64,000 bases of DNA from Trichocoleus desertorum NBK24 (GTDB lineage: Bacteria; Cyanobacteriota; Cyanobacteriia; FACHB-46): contig NZ_CP116619.1 in NCBI RefSeq assembly GCF_030409055.1, forward strand, positions 653,628 to 717,627, in the 5' to 3' direction. The position numbers and the translations under genes are program-made. The notes under the pieces are model-generated. The model was not told the origin of the DNA. It saw nothing but the letters and a program-made list of their open reading frames with translations, and searched no databases. Positions within the stretch are counted from its first letter, which is position 1; each line of letters begins with the position of its first letter. This document shows, one piece after another, positions 5,817 through 29,037 of this stretch.

Positions 5817-5984
5817 CGATTTGTCCTAATCACAACCTCAACTACCGGATTTAGTTCTAAAGCGATTAAAAAACTCGCCAGGGCGATCGCTTGAGCTAAA
5901 TTCTAGGGCATTCTCATAATCAAGTTACTCTAATATTCATATCGAGTGATCCCCTCCACTCTTACTCGCTCACTTTGCCCGTCT

Positions 5985-6821: not shown

Positions 6822-8129
6822 ATGACGGGTGTGTCTGATACAGTCATTCGAGTTGAAAATCTAGGCAAGAAATATATCATTGGCCATCAAACGCAGGGGC
6901 GATCGCGCTACACAGCCCTGAGAGATGTGCTTGCTGATGGTGCTAGATCTGTTGGTCGTCGAATACTCAATCCTTTTGCTCAACAACCTCTCCCGCCTAC
7001 AAAAGAAGAGTTTTGGGCACTTAAAGATGTCTCCTTTGAGATCGAACAGGGTGAAGCTATTGGCATCATTGGCCGCAATGGAGCTGGCAAATCTACTCTA
7101 TTAAAGATTCTCAGCCGCATCACAGAACCTACTACAGGTCGAGTCGAGCTAAAGGGACGAGTTGCCAGCCTGTTAGAGGTTGGAACTGGCTTTCATCCTG
7201 AATTAACGGGGCGAGAAAATATTTTTCTCAATGGGGCCATTTTAGGGATGAGCCGAGTAGAGATTAACCGCAAATTTGATGAGATTGTAGAGTTTGCGGA
7301 AGTCTCTCGGTTTTTAGATACGCCAGTTAAGCGGTATTCGAGTGGAATGTATGTGAGGCTGGCATTCGCGGTAGCTGCTCACCTAGAACCAGAGATTTTG
7401 CTTGTGGATGAAGTTCTAGCAGTTGGAGATGCTAAGTTTCAGAAAAGATGTCTGGGAAAGCTGCGAGATGTTGCAGGTTCTGAGGGACGAACAATATTAT
7501 TTGTAAGCCACGATTTGCCAGCCATGCAAGCTCTCTGCAATAAAGCAGTTTTAATGCATCATGGGTCAATCAAGATGCAGGGTATAAGCAGTGAGATTAT
7601 TGCAAATTATCTTTCCCTGGGAAGCCAAGATTTCCTAGGAGAGGTCAGTTTACAGAAACATCCAGGGAGACTGCATTCCCGCGAAAAAGCCTTACAGAAA
7701 ATATGGTTAACCAATGACAACCATGAGAAAACCAATGAATTTAGTATGGGGGATAGTCTTTTAGCCTCCTTTTCGTTTGACTGCGAACATCCCGTTTCAG
7801 CACCTGGATTTGGGTTTGGATTTGAGGATCAAACAGGCAGAAGAATTTTTTCACTGAATAACTATATGTCTCCCAATCCCAAGAACGAATTCGGTTCCAT
7901 TAAGCAAGGTACTGTAAGCCTAAAAATCGATAATATTCCTCTAATGCCCGGCAAGTATTATATCAGTGTCTCACTGGTAGAAAACCAAGCTGAGTGGGTT
8001 GATTTTATAGAAAGAGCTATAGGTTTCGAAGTTTACCCAGCTGATATCTTCGGATCTGGAAAAATCCCAGACTCATCTCATGGAATCATTTTTTTTCCCG
8101 GTCAAATAACAGTCAAGCCCAATTTTTGA
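6822..8129 (+). CDS. wzt: Polysaccharide ABC exporter ATPase with C-terminal glycan-binding domain (Wzt type)
   Basis: 435 residues. The nucleotide-binding domain spans about residues 8-260: Walker A GRNGAGKST (about 83-91), signature YSSGMYVRLAFA (about 171), Walker B ILLVDEVLAVGD (about 190) and the H-loop FVSHD. About 170 further residues form a beta-rich domain (FDCEHPVSAPGFGFGFEDQT, PLMPGKYYISVSLVENQAEW) resembling Wzt_C, which in O8/O9a-type systems recognises the modified non-reducing end of the finished chain. The gene follows the permease after seven bases. Presence of Wzt_C together with the methyltransferases downstream suggests export coupled to chain capping, as inference. Confidence 0.92.
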   Translation: MTGVSDTVIRVENLGKKYIIGHQTQGRSRYTALRDVLADGARSVGRRILNPFAQQPLPPTKEEFWALKDVSFEIEQGEAIGIIGRNGAGKSTLLKILSRITEPTTGRVELKGRVASLLEVGTGFHPELTGRENIFLNGAILGMSRVEINRKFDEIVEFAEVSRFLDTPVKRYSSGMYVRLAFAVAAHLEPEILLVDEVLAVGDAKFQKRCLGKLRDVAGSEGRTILFVSHDLPAMQALCNKAVLMHHGSIKMQGISSEIIANYLSLGSQDFLGEVSLQKHPGRLHSREKALQKIWLTNDNHEKTNEFSMGDSLLASFSFDCEHPVSAPGFGFGFEDQTGRRIFSLNNYMSPNPKNEFGSIKQGTVSLKIDNIPLMPGKYYISVSLVENQAEWVDFIERAIGFEVYPADIFGSGKIPDSSHGIIFFPGQITVKPNF

Positions 8130-8148: not shown

Positions 8149-8907
8149 ATGCCTCACGAAATTAGCTCTATAGAAAGTAAAGCTGAATACAGAGATTGGG
8201 TTTATTTGGAGAGAGGGGATTACCACAAAAACCTTGATTTAGATTGGTCCTATGCACCAACCTATCTCCAAAAAGTTAAACTTGTTCGACAATTCATAGA
8301 CAACCTTCCCTTAAATTTCAAAATTCTTGATTTGGGTTGTGGTGAGGGAGTTTTTATAAACGAATTTTTACAGAAAGGTAGGGATATACAAGGTTTAGAT
8401 TTAAACTACGAAAATGAATTTGTCCGAAGAGGAAATCTTCTTGAGCTTCCTTATGAGGCGTCAACTTTTGATGTTGTCATGTTACTGGATGTATTGGAGC
8501 ACATTCAATTTCAGGATCAGAGGAAAGCTCTCATAGAAATTCACCGAATTTTAAAGGGTGGTGGTTTATTCTTTGCCTCAATTCCCAATCTTGCACACTT
8601 CAGCTCTCGTTTTAGCCTAGTTCTTTCTGGGAAACTTGACCGCACTGATAGTGAACTAGATCATCCAGGAGAGCGTCCTTTTTCAGAGAACAAAGCACTT
8701 CTTGAAGAAGCTGGTTTTGAAATCTTTGAGTGTCGTGGCGTAACTTTTACAGTTCCGTATCTTTACAGGCGATTGATTTGCAGGAGAGCAAAGCAGATGA
8801 AGTGGTTGCATGACGCTCTAGAACCTATGGCAAAAGTATTTCCAGCATGGGCAATGCTGGATTTTTTCATCAGCACAAAGAAGCCAAGCCAGGATAAACA
8901 ATCTTAA
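8149..8907 (+). CDS. Class I SAM-dependent methyltransferase
   Basis: 252 residues. Motif I ILDLGCGEGVFINEF (about 62-76) and the acidic motif II region (GLDLNYENEF) mark the SAM site; FDVVMLLDVLEHIQ and LKGGGLFFASIPNLAHFSSR are motifs of the UbiE/Methyltransf_11-like group. The C-terminal part has a basic patch (LYRRLICRRAKQMKWLHDAL) that could touch membrane or glycan lipid. It starts 19 bases after the ATPase and is followed after ten bases by a GT2 gene, so it is in the same operon. Sugar O-methylation is likely but the acceptor is unknown. Confidence 0.85.
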   Translation: MPHEISSIESKAEYRDWVYLERGDYHKNLDLDWSYAPTYLQKVKLVRQFIDNLPLNFKILDLGCGEGVFINEFLQKGRDIQGLDLNYENEFVRRGNLLELPYEASTFDVVMLLDVLEHIQFQDQRKALIEIHRILKGGGLFFASIPNLAHFSSRFSLVLSGKLDRTDSELDHPGERPFSENKALLEEAGFEIFECRGVTFTVPYLYRRLICRRAKQMKWLHDALEPMAKVFPAWAMLDFFISTKKPSQDKQS

Positions 8908-8917
8908 TCGCCTCATT

Positions 8918-9931
8918 ATGCCAAAGCGTGTAACTGTAGCCATTCCTACCTATAAAAGAGGCAAACTTCTGATTGATGCTTTGCAAAGTATTATTGTCCA
9001 GAATGTTGCTTTCAATTTCGAAATATTGGTTCTCGACAATGATTGTGATAAAGCTTTAGAGAAAAAGATCTTAAAGATTGAACATCCTGAAAACATATGT
9101 CTGAAATATATTGCGGTTCCGGACTTAGGCTTACATAACGGGCGTAATCGAGCAGCTGTTGAAAGCAATGGAGAAATTGTCATCTTTATTGATGACGATG
9201 TTATTACTCCCTCAGGATGGCTAGAAGCCATGTACGCCCCTTTTCAAGATTCTCAAGTGGGTGCTGTTGGTGGTAAAACCCTGCCAAAATGGGAAGTTCC
9301 TCCACCCGATTGGTTAAAGAGCATCCCTAGCGATTACTTTAGCCTTCTCGATTTGGGCGATACCTCGCGTGAAATGCATTGGCCACAAACCCCTTACGGT
9401 TGCAATATGGCCTTTCGTCGAGAACTTATTCTCACCTTGGGCGGCTTTCCGCCTGATGGAGTAGGCGACGGGTGGATTGAATGGAAACGAGGTGATGGAG
9501 AGATCGGCTTTGCTAAGCGGGTTTACGATGAGGGATATAAAATTCTTTACAGTTCGGAGGCTTGGCTTTACCACCGTATTCCTGAGAAGCGACAAACCGT
9601 AGGATTTATTCGTCGTCGAGCTGTAAAAGGAGCCATTAGTGAGGCTTACAGCGAGGCGAAGCATTCTTCACCTTCTAGGCTGTCACTTTTAACTCAGGCT
9701 GCAAAGCATACTGCAAAAGCAGCCATAGCTGCCTTAAAACAGTTAGCAGTTACTTTTAGAGGCGTTGAATCTTGGTTAAAGTATGACATCCTATGGGTTC
9801 ACCACAGCATTTCAGCTATCTATAAAATTCGTCTTGCGCTCGATTCTGACCTAAGAAAGTGGGTTTATAAGCAACACTACTGGACAGATAGTGCCTCGGC
9901 GGCAATAGCACAGCGGTTGGTTAAGCTATGA
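8918..9931 (+). CDS. Glycosyltransferase family 2
   Basis: 337 residues with a GT-A fold at the N-terminus: VAIPTYKRGKLLIDALQSI, nucleotide-binding LVLDNDC, and the DXD-like metal site IVIFIDDDVITPSGW (about 88-102). PYGCNMAFRRELILTLGGFP and the GEIGFAKRVYDEGYKILY region are the acceptor/catalytic part typical of GT2. No clear transmembrane helix. The stop overlaps the next start (ATGA), indicating translational coupling with the methyltransferase at 9928. Donor and acceptor sugars cannot be inferred. Confidence 0.87.
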   Translation: MPKRVTVAIPTYKRGKLLIDALQSIIVQNVAFNFEILVLDNDCDKALEKKILKIEHPENICLKYIAVPDLGLHNGRNRAAVESNGEIVIFIDDDVITPSGWLEAMYAPFQDSQVGAVGGKTLPKWEVPPPDWLKSIPSDYFSLLDLGDTSREMHWPQTPYGCNMAFRRELILTLGGFPPDGVGDGWIEWKRGDGEIGFAKRVYDEGYKILYSSEAWLYHRIPEKRQTVGFIRRRAVKGAISEAYSEAKHSSPSRLSLLTQAAKHTAKAAIAALKQLAVTFRGVESWLKYDILWVHHSISAIYKIRLALDSDLRKWVYKQHYWTDSASAAIAQRLVKL

Positions 9932-10854
9932 ATCTAAAGAGTTCTCTAGAGACCTGGTTACCACCTGGTTTTATCACCATAGCTAAATTAGCAACTGGTA
10001 AAACACCCGAGCAAAAGGTTAAACGATATTTACAAAATGGCTGTATCCCTTGGTCACCCGGATATGAGCTTTATAAAGAAAATTTAATTCATAGAACATT
10101 GCAAGATCAGACATTGATCGAATCTTTTAAGTCAGAGAAGTCATTGCCGCAAAATTACGGCATTCGTCTTGATGAGAGATGCGTGGAGTATCCCTGGCTT
10201 TTCTCAAGACTACCCTATGAAGCTACCCACATCTTAGATGCAGGGTCTAGTCTCAACTACGAATACATCTTGGAGCAGCCTTACTTTGAGAACAAGCATA
10301 TCCATATCGTGACCTTAGCACCTGAGCCACAATGTTTTTGGTATAAAGGAGTGTCTTACCTCTTTGAAGATCTGAGAAATTTGCCGCTCAAAAGCAGTTT
10401 CTATGATGCTATTGTTTGCCTTTCTACCTTGGAGCATGTTGGCCTAGATAATACTCAATATTCTGAAGGCGATCGCTATAATGAAACACGATCTAGTGAC
10501 TTTAAGCTGGCCATCAACGAACTAAAGCGAGTTCTCAAGCCAGGCGGCTCGCTATTTATTAGCATACCCTTCGGTCAATATCAAAATTTGGGGTACTTCC
10601 AGCAATTCGACTCCAGACTGCTATCAGAAACTGTTGAAGCGTTTGGCTCCTGTCAAGATATACACAAGACTTTCTTTAGGTATACGGCTAGCGGGTGGCG
10701 GTTTTCTCCAGAAGAAGAGTGCGCCGACTGTATGTACGTGAAAGCTTCTGAATGGATGTCTAGCGATGCCACAAACGCCAGTAAAACTGGGAAAAATAGA
10801 AGTGGACTGGCGGCGTCGGCCCAGGCCGTAGCTTGCATCCATATTGTTTATTAA
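9928..10854 (+). CDS. Methyltransferase-like protein, class I
   Basis: 308 residues. The SAM motif is divergent (THILDAGSSLNYEYIL; the usual glycine-rich loop is reduced). Later motifs are recognisable: FYDAIVCLSTLEHVGLDN and ELKRVLKPGGSLFISIPFG. It overlaps the upstream GT2 by four bases. The last 25 residues (NASKTGKNRSGLAASAQAVA) are low in conservation character and may be a neutral extension. The weakened motif I leaves open that this is a methyltransferase-fold protein with altered cofactor binding. It is part of the same operon as the ABC exporter. Confidence 0.75.
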   Translation: MNLKSSLETWLPPGFITIAKLATGKTPEQKVKRYLQNGCIPWSPGYELYKENLIHRTLQDQTLIESFKSEKSLPQNYGIRLDERCVEYPWLFSRLPYEATHILDAGSSLNYEYILEQPYFENKHIHIVTLAPEPQCFWYKGVSYLFEDLRNLPLKSSFYDAIVCLSTLEHVGLDNTQYSEGDRYNETRSSDFKLAINELKRVLKPGGSLFISIPFGQYQNLGYFQQFDSRLLSETVEAFGSCQDIHKTFFRYTASGWRFSPEEECADCMYVKASEWMSSDATNASKTGKNRSGLAASAQAVACIHIVY

Positions 10855-10869
10855 AAGATTATTAAGATT

Positions 10870-11340
10870 ATGAAAACCTCACCAACAGTTCAAACTGCTC
10901 AGCTCTCTCCAGTTCAGCAAATTGTACACGAGAGCGAACTCCTGGCTCTCATTCTTTCTCACCGCTTTGTAGAACCAGGCATTCACTTCTTCACACCCAA
11001 TGAGCTATCTCAGCAGCTCGCCTACATGAAGTATGAAACAGGCAAATGTATTCCGGCTCATGTTCATAACCCAGTACACAGAGACGTGTTCTATACCCAA
11101 GAAGTACTCTTTATCAAGAAAGGTAAACTGAGAGTTGACTTCTACAGTAAACATCAAGAGTACTTAGAAAGCCGAATTTTAGAGGTAGGCGACGTTATCT
11201 TACTAATTACTGGAGGTCACGGATTTGAAGTGATTGAAGATCTAGAAATGGTAGAAGTTAAGCAAGGTCCCTACATTGGAGATCAAGATAAAACTCGATT
11301 CCCTGGTATTCCCTCTGACGAGGCCCAAGTTATAGGCTAA
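10870..11340 (+). CDS. Cupin-like small protein of the glycan operon
   Basis: 156 residues. The central part has a double-stranded beta-helix (cupin) pattern: IPAHVHNPVHRDVFYTQEVL supplies possible metal ligands, followed by LFIKKGKLRVDFY, ILEVGDVILLITGGHGFEV and VEVKQGPY. No N-terminal signal or membrane segment. Cupins in sugar-nucleotide operons are often isomerases, epimerases or regulators, but this one lacks enough signature to choose. It lies 15 bases after the methyltransferase and nine bases before a DegT aminotransferase, so a role in the same modified-sugar pathway is likely. Confidence 0.7.
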   Translation: MKTSPTVQTAQLSPVQQIVHESELLALILSHRFVEPGIHFFTPNELSQQLAYMKYETGKCIPAHVHNPVHRDVFYTQEVLFIKKGKLRVDFYSKHQEYLESRILEVGDVILLITGGHGFEVIEDLEMVEVKQGPYIGDQDKTRFPGIPSDEAQVIG

Positions 11341-11349
11341 ATAATCGTT

Positions 11350-12465
11350 ATGAACTTTATCCCCGTCAATGAACCAGCGCTGCAGGGCAACGAAAAGAAG
11401 TATCTTCTAGAATGTCTCGAAACGGGGTGGATTTCTTCGGAGGGGCCATTCATTCAGCGATTTGAGACCGAGTTTGCCCAAAGAGTAGGCCGCCAGTATG
11501 CCATTACTGTATCCAATGGGTCAGCTGCATTAGAAGTTGCGATCGCTGCCCTCAGTATTAAACCAGGAGATGAAGTCATTTTGCCGACCTTCACCATCAT
11601 TTCCTGTGCTGCTGCGATTGTTCGAGCGGGTGCAACACCCATCTTAGTAGATGCCGACCCTATTACCTGGAACATGGACGTTGGCCATTTAGAGAGCTGC
11701 ATCACTCCAAACACAAAAGCCATCATGGTAGCGCATATTTACGGCCTTCCCGTCGATATGGAACCGGTTTTGACAATTGCTAAGCAGCATAACCTAGCCA
11801 TTATTGAAGATGCCGCCGAGATGCACGGCCAAACCTATCAGGGCCAACCCTGCGGCAGCTTTGGAGAAATTAGCACCTTTAGCTTTTACGCCAATAAGCA
11901 CATCACCACTGGAGAAGGCGGCATGGTGGTTACGAATGATCCTGACTTAGCTGAACGATGTCGATCGCTTCGTAACCTGTGCTTCCAACCTCAGCAACGC
12001 TTTGTCCATGAAGAACTGGGTTGGAACTTCCGCATGGGTAACCTGCAAGCCGCCCTGGGAGTCGCTCAGCTGGAGCAGCTCGATAGCTTTGTTCAACGTA
12101 AACGCGAGATAGGCCAGCGCTACACCAAGGGACTATTCGGGTTGAAGGGAGTACAGCTACCATTAGCTGCTACCAACTATGCCAACAATATTTACTGGGT
12201 CTATGGCCTGGTGCTAGAAGACACTTTACCATTTGATGCTAAGGAAGCCATGCATCGCCTGAAAGCCAAAGGAGTTGGCACTCGCCCTTTCTTCTGGCCG
12301 ATGCACGAGCAGCCCGCTTTTCAAAAGATAGGTCTCTTTCAAGGAGAGAAGCACCCCGTTTCAGAAAACATAGCTCGACGAGGATTCTATATTCCGAGTG
12401 GTTTGGCCTTGACCGATGAGCAAATCGATCAGGTGATTGCTAGGGTCAAGGAGATAGCAGCATGA
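11350..12465 (+). CDS. DegT/DnrJ/EryC1/StrS-family sugar aminotransferase
   Basis: 371 residues, the normal length for PLP-dependent sugar-nucleotide aminotransferases. The PLP lysine is K183 in FYANKHITTGEGGMV. Other family marks are NGSAALEVAIAALSIKPGDEV, IIEDAAEMHGQTY and the late GTRPFFWPMHEQPAF. It probably aminates a keto-sugar nucleotide, giving an amino sugar (perosamine-type or similar) for the surface glycan. No dehydratase or epimerase gene that makes the keto substrate is in the window, so that step must be encoded elsewhere. The stop overlaps the next start by four bases. Confidence 0.92.
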   Translation: MNFIPVNEPALQGNEKKYLLECLETGWISSEGPFIQRFETEFAQRVGRQYAITVSNGSAALEVAIAALSIKPGDEVILPTFTIISCAAAIVRAGATPILVDADPITWNMDVGHLESCITPNTKAIMVAHIYGLPVDMEPVLTIAKQHNLAIIEDAAEMHGQTYQGQPCGSFGEISTFSFYANKHITTGEGGMVVTNDPDLAERCRSLRNLCFQPQQRFVHEELGWNFRMGNLQAALGVAQLEQLDSFVQRKREIGQRYTKGLFGLKGVQLPLAATNYANNIYWVYGLVLEDTLPFDAKEAMHRLKAKGVGTRPFFWPMHEQPAFQKIGLFQGEKHPVSENIARRGFYIPSGLALTDEQIDQVIARVKEIAA

Positions 12466-13232
12466 GCATATTCCAAGCCTATGCTGAATACTACGATCTC
12501 CTGTATCGGGATAAAGACTATCAAAAAGAGTCTGAGTTCATTCAGCAACTCATAAAAGCCCATGCACCCTCTACCCAAACTATCCTGGAGCTAGGAAGCG
12601 GCACCGGTCGTCACGCCGAGTATCTAGCTCAGCAGGGCTACAGCATTGTGGGTGTGGAAAGAAGCGAGGACATGCTGTCCCACTGTCGCCAACGCCAAGC
12701 TACCCAAGATAGAACCCTGGCCCAAAGACTCAAGTTCTTACAGGGTGATTTGAGAGACATTAGGCTTGAGCAAGTGTTTGACTGCATTCTTTCCCTCTTT
12801 CACGTCATCAGTTACCAAATCAGCAACGCCGATCTGATAGCTGCCTTTAAGACGGTCAACCTTCATTTAAAACCAGGAGGAGTCTTTATTTTCGATGTCT
12901 GGTATGGCCCCGCAGTTCTGCACGACAAGCCTCAAGTCAGGGTCAAGCACCTGCAAGATGGAAATTGCACGGTCACCCGGATTGCCAAGCCAACCCTACA
13001 CCTCAATGACAACCTTGTTGATGTCAACTATCAGATCCTAGTGAAATATCCTGACCAGGGTACTTACCAGGAATTGCAGGAACTGCATCAGATGCGCTAT
13101 CTGTTTAAGACTGAAGTTGACTGGCTGCTCAATCAAGCCGGAATGAACCTAATCAAGTACGGCGAGTGGATGACCCACGCTCCGGCAGGGCTTGACACTT
13201 GGGGAGTCTATTTTGTCGCTGCAAAGCCATGA
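12462..13232 (+). CDS. Class I SAM-dependent methyltransferase
   Basis: 256 residues. It has a canonical SAM-binding motif I, ILELGSGTGRHAEYLAQQG (about 43-61), then VGVERSEDML and LKPGGVFIFDVWYGPAVL. Placement directly after the aminotransferase, with ATGA overlap on both sides, suggests N- or O-methylation of the amino sugar just made (an N-methyl or N,N-dimethyl sugar is a reasonable guess, by analogy with NodS/DesVI-like enzymes). The C-terminal YGEWMTHAPAGLDTWGVYFV is typical of sugar N-methyltransferases as I remember them, but this remains inference. Confidence 0.85.
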   Translation: MSIFQAYAEYYDLLYRDKDYQKESEFIQQLIKAHAPSTQTILELGSGTGRHAEYLAQQGYSIVGVERSEDMLSHCRQRQATQDRTLAQRLKFLQGDLRDIRLEQVFDCILSLFHVISYQISNADLIAAFKTVNLHLKPGGVFIFDVWYGPAVLHDKPQVRVKHLQDGNCTVTRIAKPTLHLNDNLVDVNYQILVKYPDQGTYQELQELHQMRYLFKTEVDWLLNQAGMNLIKYGEWMTHAPAGLDTWGVYFVAAKP

Positions 13233-14494
13233 AAGTCGCGATTCCCATATCCTCTGGTCTCCCGTCTGACGGTGGGGGATATACCTTTGAGACCGAAATA
13301 ATTTCGGCTATCATTCAGCAAGCACCAAACCTCAACCATGAGTTTTGGGTTTTCAACCTATCTCAAGAACCTACGCATGGGTTTCAAGAATCAAAGCAGC
13401 TAAAATTTATCAATCCTCAAAAAGCAGCTTTCACAAGTTTCCTTTGCTGGGCCAAGGCCAATGGAGCTGCCTTGAGCAGGAAATTGAGTAATCCTAACGC
13501 CCTATTTTTGCCCATTAGCTGGCCAGAAGCCTACTTTCACGAATTTATTCAATCCAACGATTTTGACTTTTGCTGGCTGCTGTCTCCCTACGCCCTAACC
13601 CAGCAGCCTGTGCAAGCGGTACCCTTTGCAGTAACGGTCTGGGATTTGCAGCATCGGCTACAGCCCTACTTCCCCGAAATCAGCCTTAATAAACAGTGGG
13701 AGTCTAGAGAAGCCTTCTATGATAGACGGCTCAAACAGGCGACCTATGTAGTTACGGGAACACAAAGAGGCAAGCATGAAATTGAAATCTTTTATCAGAT
13801 TGCCTCTGAACGCATAGAGATCTTGCCTTTTCCAACACCTGAATTTGCCTTGAATCAAACAGATCGAGCCATTGATAAAAACTCATTTCTGCAACAATAC
13901 AGCCTTCCTCCTGATTATTTTTTCTATCCAGCCCAATTCTGGCCCCACAAAAACCATTTTGCTCTGCTCAAAGCGCTGAAGCTCCTCAATGAAAAGCACC
14001 ACATCAATGCTTCAGTCGTGCTGACGGGTTCTAACAAGGGAAATGTTGATTACGTAAAAAGCCTAATTGAAAAATTTGACCTTAAGAGTAGAGTTCATAT
14101 CTTAGGATTTATTCCCCAAGTTGATTTAGCTTATCTCTATAAATTTGCACTGGCATTAGTCTTTCCAACCTATTTCGGGCCTGACAACTTACCCCCGTTG
14201 GAAGCATTTGCTTTGGGTTGCCCAGTCATTGCCTCAGACGTGCCAGGTGCCTCCGAGCAGCTAGGGGAGGCGGCCCTGCTGGTAAAACCCAATGACATTG
14301 ACCAGATAGCCCTGGCTATGAAGACCATCTACGAAGACACAAACCTACACTACAACCTTACTCAAAAAGGCTTAACTAGAGCAAAAGCCTGGACAACCCA
14401 AGACTATGTCAACCAGATGCTGTCGCTTCTAGATCAGTTTGAAACAATTAGAAGCTGTTGGCCAAGTAATGGGTTTTTGAGTCATCGTTCTTAA
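13229..14494 (+). CDS. Glycosyltransferase family 4 (GT-B)
   Basis: 421 residues. The frame opens at GTG 13199, inside the upstream gene; ATG at 13229 overlaps the upstream stop (ATGA) and gives the expected N-terminus MKVAIPISSGLPSDGGGYT. The donor-binding half has PAQFWPHKNHFALLKALKLL and the catalytic E-rich region PTYFGPDNLPPLEAFALGCP, followed by VIASDVPGASEQLGEAALLV. It is a retaining GT of unknown sugar specificity, translationally coupled to the methyltransferase. Confidence 0.88.
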   Translation: MKVAIPISSGLPSDGGGYTFETEIISAIIQQAPNLNHEFWVFNLSQEPTHGFQESKQLKFINPQKAAFTSFLCWAKANGAALSRKLSNPNALFLPISWPEAYFHEFIQSNDFDFCWLLSPYALTQQPVQAVPFAVTVWDLQHRLQPYFPEISLNKQWESREAFYDRRLKQATYVVTGTQRGKHEIEIFYQIASERIEILPFPTPEFALNQTDRAIDKNSFLQQYSLPPDYFFYPAQFWPHKNHFALLKALKLLNEKHHINASVVLTGSNKGNVDYVKSLIEKFDLKSRVHILGFIPQVDLAYLYKFALALVFPTYFGPDNLPPLEAFALGCPVIASDVPGASEQLGEAALLVKPNDIDQIALAMKTIYEDTNLHYNLTQKGLTRAKAWTTQDYVNQMLSLLDQFETIRSCWPSNGFLSHRS

Positions 14495-14503
14495 ATTTAA
14501 GTC

Positions 14504-15406
14504 ATGGCTGATCAGGTTTACATTCTAATTCCCGTCCACAACCGTAGAGCCATTACGCTGGATTGCCTAGATACCCTCCAGCGCAACGGCGACCTCGACC
14601 GCTACTCCGTTGTAGTTATTGACGATGGCTCCACTGATGGCACCGCCGAGGTCATCAGTGGAGCCTACCCTGTCGTCACAGTTCTACAGGGCGACGGCAA
14701 GCTGTGGTGGACGGGAGCGATCGCAAAAGGCATGGAGTACGCCTACCATCAGGGAGCTGACTACTTTATCTGGCTCAATGACGACACCCTACCGCTGCCC
14801 ACAGCTCTAACCCAGTTAGTTGAACAATGCAGAGCTGCCCCTAGATGTATCGCGACAGGCCAGTGCTATGCCAGTACCCAGCTTCTGAAGCCGAGCTACG
14901 GCGGGCAAATTAAGCGCTCCTTCTCCATTCAGCTAATTGCGACCCCTAAAGGGCAGAAAAGAGCCTGCGACTGCATGAGCGGCAATTTAGTCTGTTTGCC
15001 TCGCTCTGCCGTGGTGGATATTGGCTATCCTCCCGCAAAGCAGTTGCCCCATTGTCGAGCGGATATTGTTTATACCTTAAACGCCAAGCGAGCAGGCTAT
15101 GACCTTAAAGTGGTGGGAGATGTGATTGCGATCGCACCTCTCAACCCTTTAGATGAGAGTTGGGCCTCTAGCCCTGTGCCCATGAGCCAGCGATGGAGAC
15201 AGTTAGCTAGTCTGAAATCCAACATCCATCCATCCACTTATTGGCTCTACTGCCATCAAGTCTTTGGGTGGCTAGGACCAATCTTGTTTGTCTGGGTTTA
15301 TATCAAGCTTCTGGGGTTTACTGTAGCTAGAGGAGTGCTACCGCTCGATTGGCTCAAGAAGATCAAGACTCTGAAAGACTCAAAGTTACAAGCCGGGCTT
15401 TGGTAA
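14504..15406 (+). CDS. Glycosyltransferase family 2, first of a tandem pair
   Basis: 300 residues, starting MADQVYILIPVHNRRAITL. GT-A motifs are VVIDDGSTDGTAEV (about 36-49), GDGKLWWTGAIAKGMEYAY and the DXD-like FIWLNDDTLP. The C-terminus has a hydrophobic stretch (VFGWLGPILFVWVYIKLLGF) that could be a membrane anchor. It shares motif order, spacing and N-terminus with the next gene, so they look like a tandem duplication that diverged. The WWTGAI pattern occurs in rhamnosyltransferase-like GT2 proteins, but specificity is not decided. Confidence 0.87.
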   Translation: MADQVYILIPVHNRRAITLDCLDTLQRNGDLDRYSVVVIDDGSTDGTAEVISGAYPVVTVLQGDGKLWWTGAIAKGMEYAYHQGADYFIWLNDDTLPLPTALTQLVEQCRAAPRCIATGQCYASTQLLKPSYGGQIKRSFSIQLIATPKGQKRACDCMSGNLVCLPRSAVVDIGYPPAKQLPHCRADIVYTLNAKRAGYDLKVVGDVIAIAPLNPLDESWASSPVPMSQRWRQLASLKSNIHPSTYWLYCHQVFGWLGPILFVWVYIKLLGFTVARGVLPLDWLKKIKTLKDSKLQAGLW

Positions 15407-15420
15407 TGAGAATCATTTCA

Positions 15421-16269
15421 ATGAGCAAGGGTATATTCATTCTTATTCCTGTTCATAACCGCCGAGAAACAACCTTACGCGGCTTAAGACAGCTGTATCA
15501 GGATACCACGATCCAAAATTGGCCCGACCTTCATCTTGTTGTCATCGACGATGGCTCAACAGATGGTACAGAAGCTGCCCTGAGAAATGAGTTTCCAGCA
15601 GTGACGATTTTGCGGGGTAACGGGCATCTCTGGTGGACAGGAGCTATTCGGAAAGGTATGGAATATGCCTACAACAAAGGGTGTGAAGCCGTCTTCTGGC
15701 TTAACGATGACTGCCCTCCCAGCGCCGGCAGCTTAGCAAAAATGCATGAAGCCTCTGTCTATCAAGGCAACGCCCTTATTGGAGCGGCCTGCTACATTGC
15801 CGAAACCGATGTTTTGAAACCGACTGGTGCTCAGGGTAGAACTCCAGTAGCGGCCAAACCAGGAGAAATGATGCCTGTAGATGAAATGAGCGGGCACTGC
15901 GTTTACATTCCCAGAGTTGTAATGGATGCGATTGGTTGTCCAGATATACAGCGCTTTCCCCATTATCATGGCGATAGCAGCTATACACTGCAAGCCACCC
16001 GCGCTGGTTTTCGGGCTTACATTCTTGGCGATGCCAAAGTTTCCCACCCTGGAATCATCAAGGCAAAGCCTGAAGACTTCGCTGATTTTCAAAAAGCAAC
16101 CCCCATTCAAACGTTCAAACAGATTTTCCTGAGTCAAAAGTCACTCTACTACTGGCCAACTCAATTTTTCTATAACACTGAAAAATACGGCTTCTGGCAA
16201 GGAATAGGTCTATTCTCCTTGAAATCAATTCGATGGTTGATCAAATGGGTTTGGCTTAACACCGTATAG
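15421..16269 (+). CDS. Glycosyltransferase family 2, second of a tandem pair
   Basis: 282 residues from ATG 15421 (MSKGIFILIPVHNRRETTL), which aligns exactly with the start of the upstream paralogue. ATG at 15406 overlaps the upstream stop (TAATG) and would add five residues; it is a fair alternative. The frame stays open back to 15349 inside the upstream gene. Motifs: VVIDDGSTDGTEAALR, GNGHLWWTGAIRKGMEYAYN and the metal site AVFWLNDDCPP. Likely adds a second, different residue of the same repeat unit. After it comes about 120 bases with no gene before the GT61 remnant. Confidence 0.87.
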   Translation: MSKGIFILIPVHNRRETTLRGLRQLYQDTTIQNWPDLHLVVIDDGSTDGTEAALRNEFPAVTILRGNGHLWWTGAIRKGMEYAYNKGCEAVFWLNDDCPPSAGSLAKMHEASVYQGNALIGAACYIAETDVLKPTGAQGRTPVAAKPGEMMPVDEMSGHCVYIPRVVMDAIGCPDIQRFPHYHGDSSYTLQATRAGFRAYILGDAKVSHPGIIKAKPEDFADFQKATPIQTFKQIFLSQKSLYYWPTQFFYNTEKYGFWQGIGLFSLKSIRWLIKWVWLNTV

Positions 16270-16391
16270 CTCAAAGAGCCACAGAATTGGGGGATAACCC
16301 AGCGTACAAAGGGAAAGAAGTAATTTGTTTCAAGTCGAACTAACTAATAGAGTTAAAGATTTTATCTTCATCTTTAAATAGGAAGAATTAA

Positions 16392-17594
16392 ATGCAGACA
16401 CAAATCAGAATTCTTTATGGGAGGCTGGTATCCGACCACCAATCCTTCCTCTTTTTAATTAAAAGAACACTTAAAAAAATATATTTATCTTTTCAACCCT
16501 ATGATGGCTCTACTTTCTTTCCCACTCGCGGCCCGATCCACTGTAGTCTTGCATCTGAGATCGCCATTGCATCAGGCGGTAGCCAGACGATAGTTTGCAG
16601 AGAAGATGAGCGGGAATTTAAAGTTCCCTTCACCGACAATCCAAGTATCGCTAATTTTTTTTCAAATTTTACCCATTCGCGATATCCACCTGTTTCTATC
16701 ACAATGATTCCTGGTGGCCACATCTATTCTGAAGGAGCAGTGTTCTCCCCTGACGGAACCGTCTTGGCCCGAGATCTTTCTCTAGACTTCAGTTCTCCTA
16801 GTGACTCTCATTACCTATGTAGAAAACCTATTCATAAGAGTAAGCATCTCAAGGGAAGCACGCTCTCAGTTGCCTCTTGGCAAACCCGCAGCTATTATCA
16901 TTAGCTGCTAGACGAACTGCCTCGTTATTTGCTACCAGCTATTCCCACTTTCGATCAGATTGTTTGTTCAAGAGACACAGCTATCAATCGAGAAGCCCTC
17001 CACGCACTAGGATTAGGAAACAGAAAGATACTCTCTCTCAATCAAGCAAAACACTACAAATGTGACTTGCTAATTACACCCTCTTATATAGCGCCTACAG
17101 GCGAGCCTAGTCCGTATCTAGTTGAACTAATAACCGAAGCTGTTCAACCTCTCATCTCTAGAGCAAAAAACTATCCAGAGAAAATATTTATTTCCCGCAA
17201 GCTAGCGCGTAGCAGGAGAATTATCAATGAGGATGCCATATTTCAGTTTTTCGAGTCCCAAGGTTACACTCGCATTAATCTGGAAGATTTACCTTGGAGG
17301 GATCAAATAAATATTTTCTATCACGCTCAGGAAATATTTGCCCCTCACGGAGCTGGATTGGCAAACTTGATTTTCTGCTCTAGAAAGCCTCTGGTCATAG
17401 AGCTTTTCAACACAAAATACCTGCATTGGTGTTTCTGGCGGTTGGCCGCATTGGTTGGTGCAAGATATTTGCCAATAGCCCTTCCTCGCATGGAGCTTGT
17501 TGAGCATAGCCTTGCTGCTGGCAACCTGGATATTAATGTTAGTAACCCAGCTGAGCTAATCTCGTTATATCAGAGCCTAAGGGCTAATCTCTAA
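16392..17594 (+). pseudogene. GT61 (DUF563) glycosyltransferase interrupted by one in-frame amber codon
   Basis: Codons 1-170 (16392-16901) and the following 229 codons up to 17594 are in the same frame, separated only by TAG at 16902-16904. Reading through gives ASWQTRSYYH*LLDELPRYL, where the family motif is YYHWLLDxLPR, so the stop replaces tryptophan TGG by a single G to A change. The second half keeps other GT61 marks: KIFISRKLARSRRIINE and IFAPHGAGLANLIFCSRKP. Full length is about 400 residues, normal for the family, and no other lesion is visible. It is therefore a very recent pseudogene, an assembly error, or a readthrough gene. Location inside the glycan operon suggests it once added a sugar to the same polymer. 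Confidence 0.85.
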
Positions 17595-17622
17595 GCCGAT
17601 TCCATCAAGCTAGTCACAGGTG

Positions 17623-18822
17623 ATGAACCTCCTCTATACCCTCACTGCCTATCCGCCCTACATTGGCGGTGCACAACTGCATCAACATTTGCTGGCCCAA
17701 CACTTAAAAAGTCACCATCAAATTCAGGTTTTTAGCCATTGGGATCACAACCGCACAGATTGGTTATTGGGTACGACACTACGAGCACCTAGCCAAAGTT
17801 GTTCCTATACCATTGATGAGATTCCTGTGCATCGGTTGGGTCTGTCATGGCGAGAAAAGCTTCGGATGGCTCCTTGGTTACCGCTGTACTATCCTTGGAT
17901 GAGTGTAGCTCTCCCAGCGATCGCCCAACCGCTCATTCAGCATTTGCAACCTTTTGCACAGGCAGCCACTCTTATTCATAATGTGCGTATTGGTCGAGAG
18001 GGCTTGAGTTATGCGTCTTGGCACGTTGCCCAACAACGTCAGATTCCTTTTGTCTTGACCCCAGTTCACCATCCTCGTTGGGTAGGCTGGCGCTATCAGC
18101 AATATATTCAGCTTTACCGACTTGCAGATGCTGTGATTACTCTGACAGAAGCAGAAAAACAGATCATCATCAGGTTGGGAGTTCGGGAAGAGCGAATTGC
18201 AGTAACTGGTATGGGGCCTGTTCTTGCGCCTCAAGCTGATGCCCTTGCATTCCTTAAAACGCATCAAATTATGGGTCCGATGGTTTTATTTCTGGGGCAG
18301 CATTACCGCTACAAGGGGTACCAACAAGTTTTACAAGCAGCTCACTTAGTTTGGCAAAAGGTTCCTGACGCTCATTTTGTCTTTATTGGGCCAGCAGTTA
18401 AGCAATCAGAGCGTGATTTTCAAAATCGTGACCCTCGAATTCATCGTTTAGGCAAAGTAGATCTACAAGAGAAAACCAATGCTTTAGCGGCTTGTACCTT
18501 GTTGTGCGTACCCTCAAGCCAGGAAAGTTTTGGGGGTGTTTACACTGAAGCCTGGCGCTTTGCTAAACCCGTGATTGGCTGTTCTATTCCTGCTGTAGCT
18601 GAGGTGATTGAAGACGGAGTGAATGGTTATTTAGCGGAGCAAGACCCTAGCCAGATTGCTAGCCGAATCTGTGATTTACTTTGCAACCCTGCTACTGCTG
18701 AGGAGATGGGTTTAGTAGGGCAACGTAAGGTAGAAGCCCGCTATACTTGGCCAAAAATTGCAGCTCTAACCGAACGAATTTACGAACAAGCCCTAAATGG
18801 TTTAGAAGTTGGGCATGATTAA
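17623..18822 (+). CDS. Glycosyltransferase family 4 (GT-B)
   Basis: 399 residues. GTG at 17620 and ATG at 17623 are adjacent possible starts; I took ATG. The N-terminal half has the acceptor-side loop TAYPPYIGGAQLHQHLLAQHL. The donor half has VLFLGQHYRYKGYQQVLQAA, VFIGPAVKQSERDF and the EX7E-like catalytic segment SSQESFGGVYTEAWRFAKPV. Standard retaining GT4 of mannosyl-, glucosyl- or galactosyltransferase type; specificity unknown. It begins 28 bases after the GT61 remnant, so it stays in the same transcription unit. Confidence 0.88.
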   Translation: MNLLYTLTAYPPYIGGAQLHQHLLAQHLKSHHQIQVFSHWDHNRTDWLLGTTLRAPSQSCSYTIDEIPVHRLGLSWREKLRMAPWLPLYYPWMSVALPAIAQPLIQHLQPFAQAATLIHNVRIGREGLSYASWHVAQQRQIPFVLTPVHHPRWVGWRYQQYIQLYRLADAVITLTEAEKQIIIRLGVREERIAVTGMGPVLAPQADALAFLKTHQIMGPMVLFLGQHYRYKGYQQVLQAAHLVWQKVPDAHFVFIGPAVKQSERDFQNRDPRIHRLGKVDLQEKTNALAACTLLCVPSSQESFGGVYTEAWRFAKPVIGCSIPAVAEVIEDGVNGYLAEQDPSQIASRICDLLCNPATAEEMGLVGQRKVEARYTWPKIAALTERIYEQALNGLEVGHD

Positions 18823-18846: not shown

Positions 18847-19617
18847 GTGCTCCCCAAACTTTCCCAGCAGTTTATTTTAGGTAGTCGTGTTGATGCTACA
18901 AGTTATGAGGATGCTTGCGATCGCATCCAAGCTTGGGCCGAAGCTCGAAACTCCTGCTACGTCGTCGCCGCTAATGTTCATGTAGTGATGACAGCTTATT
19001 GGAAGCGACAGTACCGAGAAATCATTAATCAAGCTGCTCTAGTAACTCCAGATGGAATGCCGTTAGTCTGGGCTTTGAGATTGCTGGGGTTGAAAGGCCA
19101 AAGCAGAGTTTATGGACCGGATTTAATGCTGGCTTGGTGCGATCGCGCCACTCACTTAGAGATGCCTATCTATTTATATGGCGGTACTGAGTCAATGCTG
19201 GAGAAGTTGCGGCACAATCTGACTCAGCAATTTCCGAGTTTGGCGATCGTAGGTACTTATGCACCACCCTTCCGCCCCCTCACCTTAGAGGAAGAGCTAG
19301 CAGATGTTCAGCGAATTAATGACTCTGGAGCCTTGGTCGTTTTTATGGGCTTGGGCTGTCCTAAGCAGGAGGAATGGATGGCTCGTCAACGAGACAAAGT
19401 TACTGCTGTAATGATTGGTGTGGGTGCAGCTTTTAGTTTTCATAGTGGAGAAGTGGCTCAGGCACCGCGCTGGATGATGAAAGTAGGCTTGGAGTGGCTA
19501 TACCGATTTTCCCAAGAACCAGGACGTTTGTGGCAGCGTTACTGCATCAATAATCCCGCATTTGTCATCCTGTTTGGTTGGCAATTGTTACAACACTGGC
19601 TACATCCAAACAATTAA
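18847..19617 (+). CDS. WecG/TagA/CpsF-family (GT26) glycosyltransferase
   Basis: 256 residues, typical family length. Starts with GTG at 18847, with AAGG four bases upstream. Family marks: VVAANVHVVMTAYWKR, VTPDGMPLVWALRLLG, YGPDLMLAWCDRA, FMGLGCPKQEEWMARQR and VGVGAAFSFHSGEVAQAPRW. Members transfer ManNAc(A)- or N-acetyl amino-sugar-type residues onto a polyprenyl-diphosphate-linked first sugar, the second committed step of many surface glycans. No SD-strong promoter is seen before it; it appears to be the last tightly spaced gene of the first glycan block. Confidence 0.92.
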   Translation: MLPKLSQQFILGSRVDATSYEDACDRIQAWAEARNSCYVVAANVHVVMTAYWKRQYREIINQAALVTPDGMPLVWALRLLGLKGQSRVYGPDLMLAWCDRATHLEMPIYLYGGTESMLEKLRHNLTQQFPSLAIVGTYAPPFRPLTLEEELADVQRINDSGALVVFMGLGCPKQEEWMARQRDKVTAVMIGVGAAFSFHSGEVAQAPRWMMKVGLEWLYRFSQEPGRLWQRYCINNPAFVILFGWQLLQHWLHPNN

Positions 19618-21962: not shown

Positions 21963-24155
21963 GTGACTCAAACCATATTATCTAACGGGTATATCGTGAA
22001 AAACCAAACATCAGGCTTTTACAAATTTTTGATAGAGCAATCCCCAACTCCAATTTATCAGCGTATTATTAAGAACTTGGAGTATATTTTAACAAAACTA
22101 GGAAATGAAGTTGTTATCTCTTACCCAGGGCAGTTTAAAGATGAAATAGACTATCTACAATATATTTCTTCTCAAGAAATAGACTATTGTATCATCACGA
22201 ATAGCTCCTCTTTAATCTCTTCGTACTCTGAAGTTTTCAACGTTTTTATATTTGAGCTAATTAATGTACCAATTATATTTATTCATCATGATAATATATT
22301 TAGTGATTTACATGAGCATGAGAAAATCAAACCAAAGCTAGAAGCTTTTTGCAGAATAAAATCTAAAAGTTTTCATTTTTGCATTGAATATTATAATTTC
22401 TTAGATCTAAAAAGTTTAGGAATTGAGAATGTGTACTCAATTCATCATGCTTCCGAATTCAAGTATATTAAACCTTGCAAAAAATATCTTTATGATGTTT
22501 CGTTCGTAGGGCATGTACTACCAGAACTGGGAAGTACACTTGGAGAAGCTTCATACTCTCATCTACTCAAGGCTGATTTTTGGAATCGTCTAGTTCATTT
22601 AGACAAGGAGCTTGAACAATCAGCTATATCTTTTGCTACCCGCGCAAGTTCTAGTCAAAGTAATTTTATCGATTTTTTGGAAGCAAAATATTTGTATATT
22701 TCCATGCTTCACTCAAACTCTTCTCCTTTTTTCCGGGGAGAGGTAATTAAACGATTAAAAAATGTAAATATCCATATTTTCGGCGGAGATCCTGCCTATC
22801 TAAATGACTTACCTCTAAACCGAAAAATTCAGGAATCAAATATTTTTTATCATCCTGTCACGAAAGATTACTCTGATGCTAAATACATATATGCCAACTC
22901 TAAAATAAATCTCAATATTACATCCTTGCAATTTGATGATGCAGTAATTAATCGAGTTATAGACATTGCCTCTGTAGGCGGGTTTGTACTCACTGACTGG
23001 AAGTCTAAATTAAAATCTCTAACATCCGTTTACGAAGAAATTTCTTACAAAACAATTGATGAGCTTAAATTCAAAATAGACTACTACCTAAAACATGAAG
23101 AAGAACGTCTTGAGATTGCAGAAAAGCTTCATCAGGATATAACGAACAGTTGCAGTTACCATTATATAGCCACCTTTATACTTTCAAAAATTGACTCTAT
23201 GACAAGGACTCAGGAAGAACCTCTTCGCTTAGATTTAGGCTGTGGAGTCTGGAAAGAAGAGGGTTTTGTTGGAGTAGATATTTACGGGGAATCAAAAGTA
23301 GATGTTATTGCCGATTTAAATCGACGTTTTCCCTTTCCAGACAATAGTGTAGATGAAATTAAAGCACACGATATTCTCGAACATCTAAAAGACAACATTC
23401 ATAGTATGAATGAAATCTGGAGAGTCTGCAAACCATATGCAAAGGTAGATATTCGTGTGCCATCAACTGATGGTCGAGGAGCTTTTCAAGATCCAACACA
23501 TATAAGTTTTTGGAATCTTAATTCATTTAAGTACTACTGTGTGGAGTTCCCTGCCTATATTAAACTTTGCAAAAGTTACGGATTTCAAGGCACATTTAGG
23601 ATTTTAACCCTTACAGAGGAAGAGTCGCCGGAGCAGGTCATTCATGTAAGAGCTATATTGGAAGTCATAAAAAATATAGACGCTCAGTCAATTTCAGAAA
23701 ATAATTCTGTTGACTGGAATTTAAGGGAAATAAATCTAATGGTTTTTCCAGATTGGAATAAGTCTGAAGAATTGTTAGCCCAAGAGTTAAGTACTGTGAT
23801 TAGGTCTATTGCAACTCATGCAGACAGAGGGTTAATTTCACTTTTAATACATATTGGGGATTTAGACAGCGAAGATACAGAACTGATGTTAGCAGCCATA
23901 GTAATGGAACTATTCTTAAAAGAGGATATTGATATTGATGAAGGGCCGGAAATCTCTTTTTTTGGAAAACTGAGTCATCTGCAACAGAATACTCTGAAGG
24001 AACGAACTTATTTTCGAGTCCCTTTAGAGAGTGAAAATCAACACTTTATTTCACCAAGCGAATTAGATCCAATTAATATTCCTACCTTTGATTTGAGTGT
24101 CCTTCATCATAAACGAGTGATCTTTCGGGAAGCAAGCACATGGGATTTTGAATAA
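21963..24155 (+). CDS. Three-module protein: CgeB-like glycosyltransferase, methyltransferase, shared C-terminal module
   Basis: 730 residues, GTG start at 21963 with no strong Shine-Dalgarno. Residues 1-400: CgeB/Glyco_trans_1_2-like GT-B (DVSFVGHVLPELGSTLGEAS, IHIFGGDPAYL, YANSKINLNITS, DIASVGGFVLTDW). Residues 418-570: class I methyltransferase-like (LRLDLGCGVWKEEGFVGVDI, IKAHDILEHL, PTHISFWN). Residues 588-715: a module beginning INLMVFPDWNKSEELL, with VIRSIATHADRG and DEGPEISFFGKLSHLQ; the same module closes the glycosyltransferase at 34479. The gene is strongly AT-rich relative to its surroundings and ends 80 bases before the mobile-element cluster, so lateral gain is plausible. Sugar specificity is unknown. 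Confidence 0.8.
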   Translation: MTQTILSNGYIVKNQTSGFYKFLIEQSPTPIYQRIIKNLEYILTKLGNEVVISYPGQFKDEIDYLQYISSQEIDYCIITNSSSLISSYSEVFNVFIFELINVPIIFIHHDNIFSDLHEHEKIKPKLEAFCRIKSKSFHFCIEYYNFLDLKSLGIENVYSIHHASEFKYIKPCKKYLYDVSFVGHVLPELGSTLGEASYSHLLKADFWNRLVHLDKELEQSAISFATRASSSQSNFIDFLEAKYLYISMLHSNSSPFFRGEVIKRLKNVNIHIFGGDPAYLNDLPLNRKIQESNIFYHPVTKDYSDAKYIYANSKINLNITSLQFDDAVINRVIDIASVGGFVLTDWKSKLKSLTSVYEEISYKTIDELKFKIDYYLKHEEERLEIAEKLHQDITNSCSYHYIATFILSKIDSMTRTQEEPLRLDLGCGVWKEEGFVGVDIYGESKVDVIADLNRRFPFPDNSVDEIKAHDILEHLKDNIHSMNEIWRVCKPYAKVDIRVPSTDGRGAFQDPTHISFWNLNSFKYYCVEFPAYIKLCKSYGFQGTFRILTLTEEESPEQVIHVRAILEVIKNIDAQSISENNSVDWNLREINLMVFPDWNKSEELLAQELSTVIRSIATHADRGLISLLIHIGDLDSEDTELMLAAIVMELFLKEDIDIDEGPEISFFGKLSHLQQNTLKERTYFRVPLESENQHFISPSELDPINIPTFDLSVLHHKRVIFREASTWDFE

Positions 24156-26146: not shown

Positions 26147-27167
26147 TTGGAAAGCCTCAATTGTTCTGAAACCTCACTCACTGCTTCTCAAATTGACGAT
26201 CTATGTTTGGCAGCCTCCAAAATGAGCGGGGCGGCTCGTCGGAGCTATCAAGCGCAGATGACGTTGAAGTATTGTGACGGGAATGCTCGCATGGCTGAGC
26301 GTGTGTTTGGGTGGGGCCGAAACAATATCGAAGTGGGATTAGCAGAACAGCGCAGTGGCATCATTTGTGTCGGCGCTCAAGCGGGCTATAGCGGGAGCAA
26401 ACGATGGGAGGAGAAGCCCTCTGAAGTGGCAGCAGCGTTACGAGCACTGGCAGAAGCGCAGGCTCAACAAGACCCAACGTTTGAAAGCTCAGTCGCTTAC
26501 ACCCGATTAACGGCTCAGCAAGCATTAGCACAACTACGCCAGCAGGGATTTGCTCCAGAGCAGTTGCCAGTGCCTAGTACAATGGCCGTGATTCTCAATC
26601 GGATGGGGTACCGATTGCAACCCGTGGTGAAGGCGAAACCCCAAAAAACTTCCCGAAACAGACGCCATCTTTGACAACATCAGCGCGAAAGATTCCGGTT
26701 CAAACAGCGGTCGTGTCAAACGATTAAGCATTGACTGCAAAGCGACGGTTGCCATTGGGGAATATTCACGAGGTGGAAAAACCAGGGGCAATATCAAGGC
26801 GAGTGATCATGATATGGGCTGTGAGGAAAAATATATTCCCTGTGGCATTGTGGATGAGGACAGTGGACAATTGCATATCTTCTTTGGTAGTTCCTACAAA
26901 ACGAGTGATTTCATTGTCGATACGCTTGAAAATTGGTGGAATGGACTGTCTAGCACTCAGCAAGCAAAGACTAAACGCTTGCAACTGAAAGTAGATAACG
27001 GAGCGGAAAGTAGCGGGATTCGGACCCAATTCCTCAAGCGGATGGTCAAGTTTTCAGACCAAATTGGCAAGCCCATTCAGTTGCTTTATTACCCGCCATA
27101 TCACAGCAAATACAATCCAATTGAACGATGTTGGGGAATTTTGGAACAACATTGGAACGGCACTCAA
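26147..27167 (+). pseudogene. ISAzo13-like transposase, frameshifted and truncated
   Basis: First segment 26147-26674 (TTG start, AAGGAG eight bases upstream): MTLKYCDGNARMAERVFGWG and GIICVGAQAGYSGSKRWEEK are marks of ISAzo13-family transposases. At the A6 run 26643-26648 the frame changes by +1 and continues as LPETDAIFDNISAKDSG, RLSIDCKATVAIGEYSRGG, DHDMGCEEKYIPCGIVDED, then YNPIERCWGILEQHWNGTQ. At 27167 it is cut by the 3' end of an antisense group II intron; the last about 90 residues expected for the family are missing and do not reappear after the intron and IS200 element. Not functional. Confidence 0.85.
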
Positions 27168-29037
27168 ATCGGGATAGGGAGAAACCTCGCAGTTCCCCCC
27201 TCCCACACCACCTGGCATACGGGTCCGTACCAAGGCGGTTCAATCGAGTTGAATGTCAAATCAGTCGCTAAGTTTTGGTAGTCCCTGTCTGTTGAAGTAA
27301 TCGTTGCTTAACGCCAGTTGAACGCCAGGTGTATGGCAAATCCGCCACGGTCCTTTGTTACTCCACGCAGTGGTATGAGCCAACAACGGTGGAACGCCTA
27401 ACGCTATCAACTCCCACTTGCGCCGCCGATAGGTTTTCCATTGTTTCCACAATGCACAACGCAATCGACGACGAATCCAGCTATCGAGGTCTTTGAATTG
27501 CCGGATGGTTTCGGCAAATCCAAAGTAGGCTTTCCATCCTCGCAGGTATCGGGATAACTCGGCTATCCGTTCCTGCCAGTTCACACTTCGAGTCCGGCGA
27601 GTCAATTGCCGCACTCGGTGCTTGAATCGCCGAATGGCTTCATTAGCCACTTTCCGTCGATGCAGTCCTCCGCTTGCTGTGAAGCTGAATCCCAGAAACT
27701 TGCGCTCATGAGGGCGAGCCACTGCGCTCTTGCTCTGATTAATCTTGAGCTTGAGGCGATGGGTGATGAATCGGCTAATGCTCGCCATCACTCGTTCCCC
27801 GGCTCGTTGACTGCACACATAAATGTTGCAATCATCCCCGTAGCGCACAAACTGGTGTCCTCGTCTCTCTAATTCCTTGTCCAGTTCATCTAAAACGACG
27901 TTGGACAGGAATGGTGAAAGTGGTCCACCCTGGGCTGCTCCTTCGTGGCGAGGGCTCACTAAGCCATTCTCTAAAACACCAGCTTCCAGATACGCTCGGA
28001 TTAATTGAAGCGCTCGGACATCGCTAATCCGTTGACTTAGGGCACTCAAGAGGCGGTCATGATTCACTCGGTCGAAGAATTTCTCCAAATCGAGGTCAAC
28101 CACCCATTCATACCCTGCTTTGAGGTAGCTTTGCGCTTGTGCTACGGCTTGATGGGCCGACCGCCGAGGGCGAAATCCGTAGCTGTGTTCAGAGAAGCTT
28201 CTATCCCACTTTGCTTGCAGAACCTGCAAAGTTGCCTGCTGAATCAGGCGATCTAATACAGTGGGAATGCAAAGTTGGCGAACTCCTGTACCATTCGGTT
28301 TTGGGATTGCCACCTTCCTAACCGGCTGTGGTCTGTAAACCCCACGAAGAAGACGTTCCTTGATGTCGAGCCAGTGAGCTTTGAGGTAGTTTGGTAGTTC
28401 CTCGACGGTCATTCCGTCTACCCCAGGGGCTCCTTGATTCTGCATCACACGCTTCAGCGCTGGGAGCAAGTTACTTCGTTGACAAATTTCCTCCATTAAC
28501 GCTGCATCAAACATCGGGCTTTGGGAAGGCTGTCCCGCTATGAGTAAATCAGCCGTTCCCGCATTCGCCCCAGGCTTCACCTGCTCTCGTGCGGGAGACG
28601 CTCCTTGCGAAGTTATCTGCCTTTTAGAATTACTCATAGGTTCCAGGTCTTATTCACCACTCTCGATTGTTTGGACCTTCAGCAATCGCTTGCCTACTAT
28701 GTCCGCTGCTGACTTCTGCGTCAGGGTTAGAGCAGATTGCTCTACTCTCAGTCCGTTTGAACATGCCACAGACCTCCCGGAGTAAGTTCACACACTTTTG
28801 GTACACAACCGCTGGATTTACGTTGCCGGTGCTTGATGGATATGGACTTTGTGATCTCATGCTCACTCGTCCCACCTTCACGCCTCTGATCCAGTTTCTA
28901 TTCGTCGGCTCATACCTTTGCTCCACGCTTCCTTCAGACCTTACCTCGCGATAACGCCCTTGCGCTTCACTACCCTTCACCTCCATCAGGTTGGGAAAGG
29001 ACTTTCACCTCCTAGCGTGTCCACATGTCCGGCACAC
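27168..29037 (-). mobile_element. Group II intron, minus strand
   Basis: Proposed 5' end is GTGTG at 29037-29033, matching the GUGYG consensus, followed by the conserved CTAGGAGGTGAAAGTCC. Proposed 3' end is CCCGAT at 27173-27168 (ends in AY). Upstream of it are recognisable domain V sequence (GAACCGCCTTGGTACGGACC ... GTATGCCAGGTGGTG) and domain VI. Length about 1870 nt, including the maturase gene. The 435 bases between the maturase start and the intron 5' end are ribozyme domains I-III rather than coding sequence. 5' exon side is the terminal hairpin of an IS200-type element; 3' exon side is the broken ISAzo13 gene. Confidence 0.85.
27261..28637 (-). CDS. ltrA: Group II intron reverse transcriptase/maturase
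   Basis: 458 residues. RT core motifs: RKVAIPKPNGTGVRQLCIPT, DLDLEKFFDRVNHDRL, EGAAQGGPLSPFLSNVVLDE (about 232-251) and the active site VRYGDDCNIYV (266-269 YGDD; many group II RTs have YADD). Thumb/maturase X domain: KFLGFSFTASGGLHRRKVAN and LSRYLRGWKAYFGFAETIRQ. It ends at NDYFNRQGLPKLSD with no HNH endonuclease domain, typical of En-minus introns such as group IIC. The reading frame is intact, so retrohoming is possible. It splices its intron and reverse transcribes it into new targets. Confidence 0.93.
   Translation of the reverse strand: MSNSKRQITSQGASPAREQVKPGANAGTADLLIAGQPSQSPMFDAALMEEICQRSNLLPALKRVMQNQGAPGVDGMTVEELPNYLKAHWLDIKERLLRGVYRPQPVRKVAIPKPNGTGVRQLCIPTVLDRLIQQATLQVLQAKWDRSFSEHSYGFRPRRSAHQAVAQAQSYLKAGYEWVVDLDLEKFFDRVNHDRLLSALSQRISDVRALQLIRAYLEAGVLENGLVSPRHEGAAQGGPLSPFLSNVVLDELDKELERRGHQFVRYGDDCNIYVCSQRAGERVMASISRFITHRLKLKINQSKSAVARPHERKFLGFSFTASGGLHRRKVANEAIRRFKHRVRQLTRRTRSVNWQERIAELSRYLRGWKAYFGFAETIRQFKDLDSWIRRRLRCALWKQWKTYRRRKWELIALGVPPLLAHTTAWSNKGPWRICHTPGVQLALSNDYFNRQGLPKLSD

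Follow-up and report, generated by a model that had tools for sequence, protein, structure and literature searches.

Does a glycosyltransferase gene that is intact apart from one codon still encode an enzyme? The question is raised by a gene of family GT61 in Trichocoleus desertorum NBK24, which lies in the window (the whole 64,000-nucleotide stretch of DNA analysed here) and carries an amber codon within its reading frame. The answer is probably negative: with good confidence, an accessory GT61 glycosyltransferase gene has recently become a null allele through a nonsense mutation, within a Wzm/Wzt (ABC-transporter-dependent) surface-polysaccharide cluster. The basis for this reading is the stop itself, an intact copy in a sister genome (G001), undamaged neighbouring genes, signs of purifying selection in the past, tRNAs among which no suppressor was recognised, and a GT61 gene missing from the equivalent cluster of a third genus member (G002). 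The gene and its parts are as follows:

16392 to 17594, + strand, interrupted GT61 glycosyltransferase gene, 400 codons with one internal stop
16902 to 16904, + strand, in-frame TAG at codon 171, a Trp position in sister G001 and in 38 of 41 homologues
16392 to 16904, + strand, N-terminal product of 170 amino acids expected if translation ends at the TAG, without a Pfam match and without the conserved Arg
16905 to 17594, + strand, remainder after the stop, holding the bulk of the Pfam GT61 domain, with no further lesion

The frame runs from an ATG at 16392 to a TAA at 17592-17594, and another TAA at 16389-16391 sits just upstream of the ATG, outside the coding region. Both halves share one frame, as the earlier note had claimed, and the amber (asterisk) is read in the context SWQTRSYYH*LLDELPRYLL. 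Besides this TAG the 400 codons contain neither a further stop nor a frameshift, which bears out the idea of one substitution interrupting an otherwise undamaged gene. The same note took YYHWLLD as the family motif; this locates the site correctly, but the motif is broader, typically [YF][YF]HW[ML]xDxLPR, with a Trp that is common and not invariant.

Against Pfam Glyco_transf_61 (PF04577; cut-off 27), the post-stop part reaches 73.1 bits and the intact sister protein 81.6 bits; the upstream 170 residues alone match no Pfam family. A chance frame is ruled out by this match together with the intact same-genus orthologue. Searching the whole genome for Glyco_transf_61 returns one place, the 400-residue frame with its one TAG inside; a second GT61 copy able to cover the loss is absent from that search. 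The genome thus lacks the uninterrupted frame expected of a functional GT61 enzyme, because of the TAG at 16902-16904.

Relatives retain a sense codon at the site. The gene is intact in the same-genus genome G001 as a 415-amino-acid frame (L022:10300-11547), is 84% identical to the window's gene over 400 aligned residues and has Trp at the stop codon. Among 41 de-duplicated homologous matches, which are the loci fetched and only part of the genomes matched, the position holds 38 W, 2 L and 1 F; two further alignments did not cover it. The expectation of a Trp codon (TGG) after YYH is thereby confirmed, and homologues lacking this Trp and starting downstream, the case named earlier as refuting, were not what the comparison found. 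With the post-stop part as query, 25 of 59 related genomes matched, and none of the matches listed has an internal stop. With the intact sister protein as query, 95 of 388 genomes matched, the only internal stop among the matches listed being the window's own. Of two contig scans for named or closer relatives, the first gave none and the second gave two distant ones, Iningainema tapete and Paraburkholderia diazotrophica. Among phage records the best hit is a weak 34% match. No published description of the interrupted gene was found, which is not a claim that none is in print.

The position of the stop bears directly on activity. In an alignment of 19 homologues, headed by the sister protein and leaving out the window's own, the Trp, the His preceding it and an Arg pair (R269 and R275 of the window) are invariant. 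In the eukaryotic members EOGT and POMGNT2, UDP is described as bound by the triads N245, R372, R377 and N163, R294, R298, respectively; POMGNT2 H166 (EOGT H248) is proposed to be catalytic, the His of an xxH motif acting as catalytic base, and Gly is reported at the Asn position of the UDP-binding constellation in Proteobacteria (PMC13123520). By motif spacing, we infer that H170 of the window corresponds to H248/H166; likewise, R269 and R275 fit the UDP-binding Arg pair and S167 fits the Asn position, which is Ser in the window's gene and Asn in some homologues. A profile search matches the C-terminal part to the POMGNT2 and EOGT chains, with the His region outside the match. An AlphaFold model built from two sequences was too poor to be of use (mean pLDDT 41.3). 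The Pfam match, the profile match, the HW motif and the two conserved Arg are features shared with the GT61 family as described for EOGT and POMGNT2 (PF04577; PMC13123520). The window's gene differs from the enzymes described there in being an interrupted gene for a bacterial cluster enzyme and in having Ser, not Asn, three residues before the His (PMC13123520). The 170-residue product would end at the putative catalytic His and would lack both conserved Arg.

How long the stop has been in place can be judged from the pattern of substitutions. Between the window and sister G001, pairwise dN/dS (Nei-Gojobori) is 0.17 ahead of the stop (residues 25-170) and 0.14 beyond it (residues 172-400), next to 0.11 for the neighbouring GT4 gene and 0.10 for WecG. 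Polarising the amino-acid changes in GT61 gives 9 on the window lineage and 6 on the sister lineage with G357 as outgroup, 4 and 9 with Iningainema, and 6 and 9 with both (32 unresolved), with no clear excess on the window lineage. A maximum-likelihood protein tree leans the opposite way to the 6 against 9, with branches of 0.093 for the window and 0.054 for the sister, and the longer window branch would allow for an interval of relaxed constraint preceding or following the stop. As a rough figure, with the 6 versus 9 changes and dN/dS set at 0.15, no more than about one fifth of the window branch could have been unconstrained. Purifying selection on both halves and the lack of a clear excess of changes argue that the stop is recent, or that GT61 was constrained until recently. 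The low dN/dS to either side of the stop, and the lack of a second lesion, lead us to reject an ancient pseudogene.

The surroundings of the gene are those of a polysaccharide cluster with an exchanged interior:

5946 to 6815, + strand, wzm (ABC-2 permease), conserved flank
6822 to 8129, + strand, wzt with Wzt_C domain, conserved towards its N-terminus and divergent towards its C-terminus relative to G001
8149 to 16269, + strand, variable cassette of methyltransferases, GT2, DegT aminotransferase, GT4 and two GT2
16392 to 16463, + strand, divergent first 24 GT61 codons, the right edge of the exchanged cassette
17620 to 18822, + strand, GT4-type glycosyltransferase, common to G001 and missing from the equivalent G002 cluster
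18847 to 19617, + strand, WecG/TagA/CpsF-family transferase, right flank, conserved in all three genus members

An ABC-2 permease and a Wzt ATPase with a Wzt_C domain adjoin the transferases, an arrangement followed by variable transferases that is shared with cyanobacterial Wzm/Wzt O-antigen clusters (PMC4390846); unlike those described as O-antigen clusters, the window's may make either an LPS O-antigen or an exopolysaccharide. The genome also encodes PsaA/PsaB proteins, which marks the organism as a cyanobacterium. DNA similarity to G001 breaks off within wzt, near 7470-7510, and picks up again within GT61, at 16461. Synonymous divergence from G001 is 0.40 for GT61 and 0.42 for GT4, against 0.71-0.79 for wzm, WecG and the gene at 21963-24155 and 1.05 for the start of wzt. 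The stretch at 16461-18822 (GT61 and GT4) thus shows about half the synonymous divergence of the flanking genes, which suggests that it was exchanged more recently. G002 retains wzm, the first part of wzt and wecG, with other genes between them, and has neither GT61 nor GT4 there; on these three genomes, GT61 is thus accessory in the genus. Further along the window, an ISAZ013-type DDE transposase in two frames with its middle missing (26147-27281) is probably a decayed insertion element. Beside it lies a reverse transcriptase with a group II intron maturase domain (27261-28637, - strand), and an IS200-type Y1 transposase (29074-29517, - strand) sits between two polysaccharide gene groups.

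The main rival reading is that the stop is a single-base consensus error and that GT61 is unbroken in the strain itself. Such an error would leave just one substituted codon in a gene that is otherwise undamaged and bears signs of purifying selection until recently. This reading is nevertheless unlikely: the 5,458,034-base assembly forms a single contig and is 99.99% complete, and gene-breaking errors are not frequent in the window. Thirty-seven of 43 sister ORFs of at least 150 amino acids (stop to stop) match it, and stops appear in five of these, namely GT61, one ORF that is largely antisense to the 5019-5816 gene, and three whose stop either precedes the listed start or falls at the extreme end. 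Only GT61 is broken inside its coding region among the 37, and the description of the operon as otherwise intact stands. Division of GT61 into two cistrons, the 170-residue protein and a separately started C-terminal protein of 221 amino acids, is barely credible. A TTG-started frame is present at 16929, but TTG is a rare start codon and lies here inside the conserved LPRYL motif, and no examined homologue is split at this point.

Reading through or suppressing the amber, to give full-length GT61 at a low or regulated level, would accord with a frame that is intact past the stop and was under past purifying selection; the sense codon in the sister and the homologues speaks against it, as does the translation machinery. 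RF00005 matches were passed to ARAGORN (a first look scored 150 of 276 candidates), which recognised as tRNAs 39 of the 40 above the cut-off, the exception being the partial match L064, and neither of two below it (L065, L066). None of the recognised tRNAs has a CUA anticodon, a strong negative in a set that is nevertheless incomplete: Ala-UGC, Ile-GAU and Leu-UAA, which are expected in the genome, are missing from this non-exhaustive search, and that gap leaves some room for a suppressor. A CUA anticodon-arm pattern occurs 32 times in the genome against 53 for the reversed control, and no CUA tRNA is found among the 30 of 32 matches fetched. The gene for RF1 is present (519 bits), leaving neither a suppressor tRNA nor a release-factor change in evidence within this search. 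TAG is an ordinary terminator: of 39 genes picked from the window's ORF list, 9 end in it, 24 in TAA and 6 in TGA. The RNA downstream of the stop shows no unusual stability (z 0.54). The absence of a suppressor from the tRNAs found, the presence of RF1 and the use of TAG argue against readthrough, so the earlier suggestion of a suppressor-dependent gene is very improbable. For the suggested phase-like polymorphism, a point substitution shows no visible switching mechanism. A standing, reversible or leaky amber in the population, with most cells lacking the GT61 sugar and a minority bearing it, is as improbable as readthrough; if true, it would give the population varied surfaces as a defence against phages or grazers. 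As a separate observation, one 41-base sequence that fits the tRNA-arm pattern recurs unchanged at several sites (L105, at G000:C1, 376638-376678; L106; L107; L109; L133; and 5330982) and is a multicopy element, not a tRNA.

For a recent null allele, the expected consequences are limited. Since translation would stop immediately past the putative catalytic His, leaving 170 residues, a protein truncated at H170 is predicted to be inactive and no active GT61 enzyme would be made. With the remaining cluster intact, the pathway would be changed and not abolished, and the strain probably makes an altered polysaccharide. This would probably lack the residue that GT61 adds, or be truncated if that residue belongs to the backbone. 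Pneumococcal capsule type 33E, which arises from inactivation of the glycosyltransferase gene wciE, in which nonsense mutations are described (PMC10462825), is a direct precedent for a nonsense-inactivated glycosyltransferase. In each case a single glycosyltransferase gene is cut short by a stop within a cluster that otherwise works (for wciE, a 33F-type cps locus), and the repeat is expected to lose one sugar. They differ in that 33E concerns a Wzy-dependent Gram-positive capsule of solved structure (PMC10462825), whereas the window holds a cyanobacterial Wzm/Wzt-type cluster with a GT61 enzyme.

As an ordinary gene loss, this allele leaves the understanding of any system unchanged. Should the stop be real, GT61 has here a naturally occurring loss-of-function allele, in a cyanobacterial surface-polysaccharide cluster, and a close relative has an intact copy, and the copy in G001 makes the contribution of the GT61 sugar testable by comparing the two strains. 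The change of a surface glycan by cassette exchange and nonsense mutation is a familiar pattern, met here outside pathogens.
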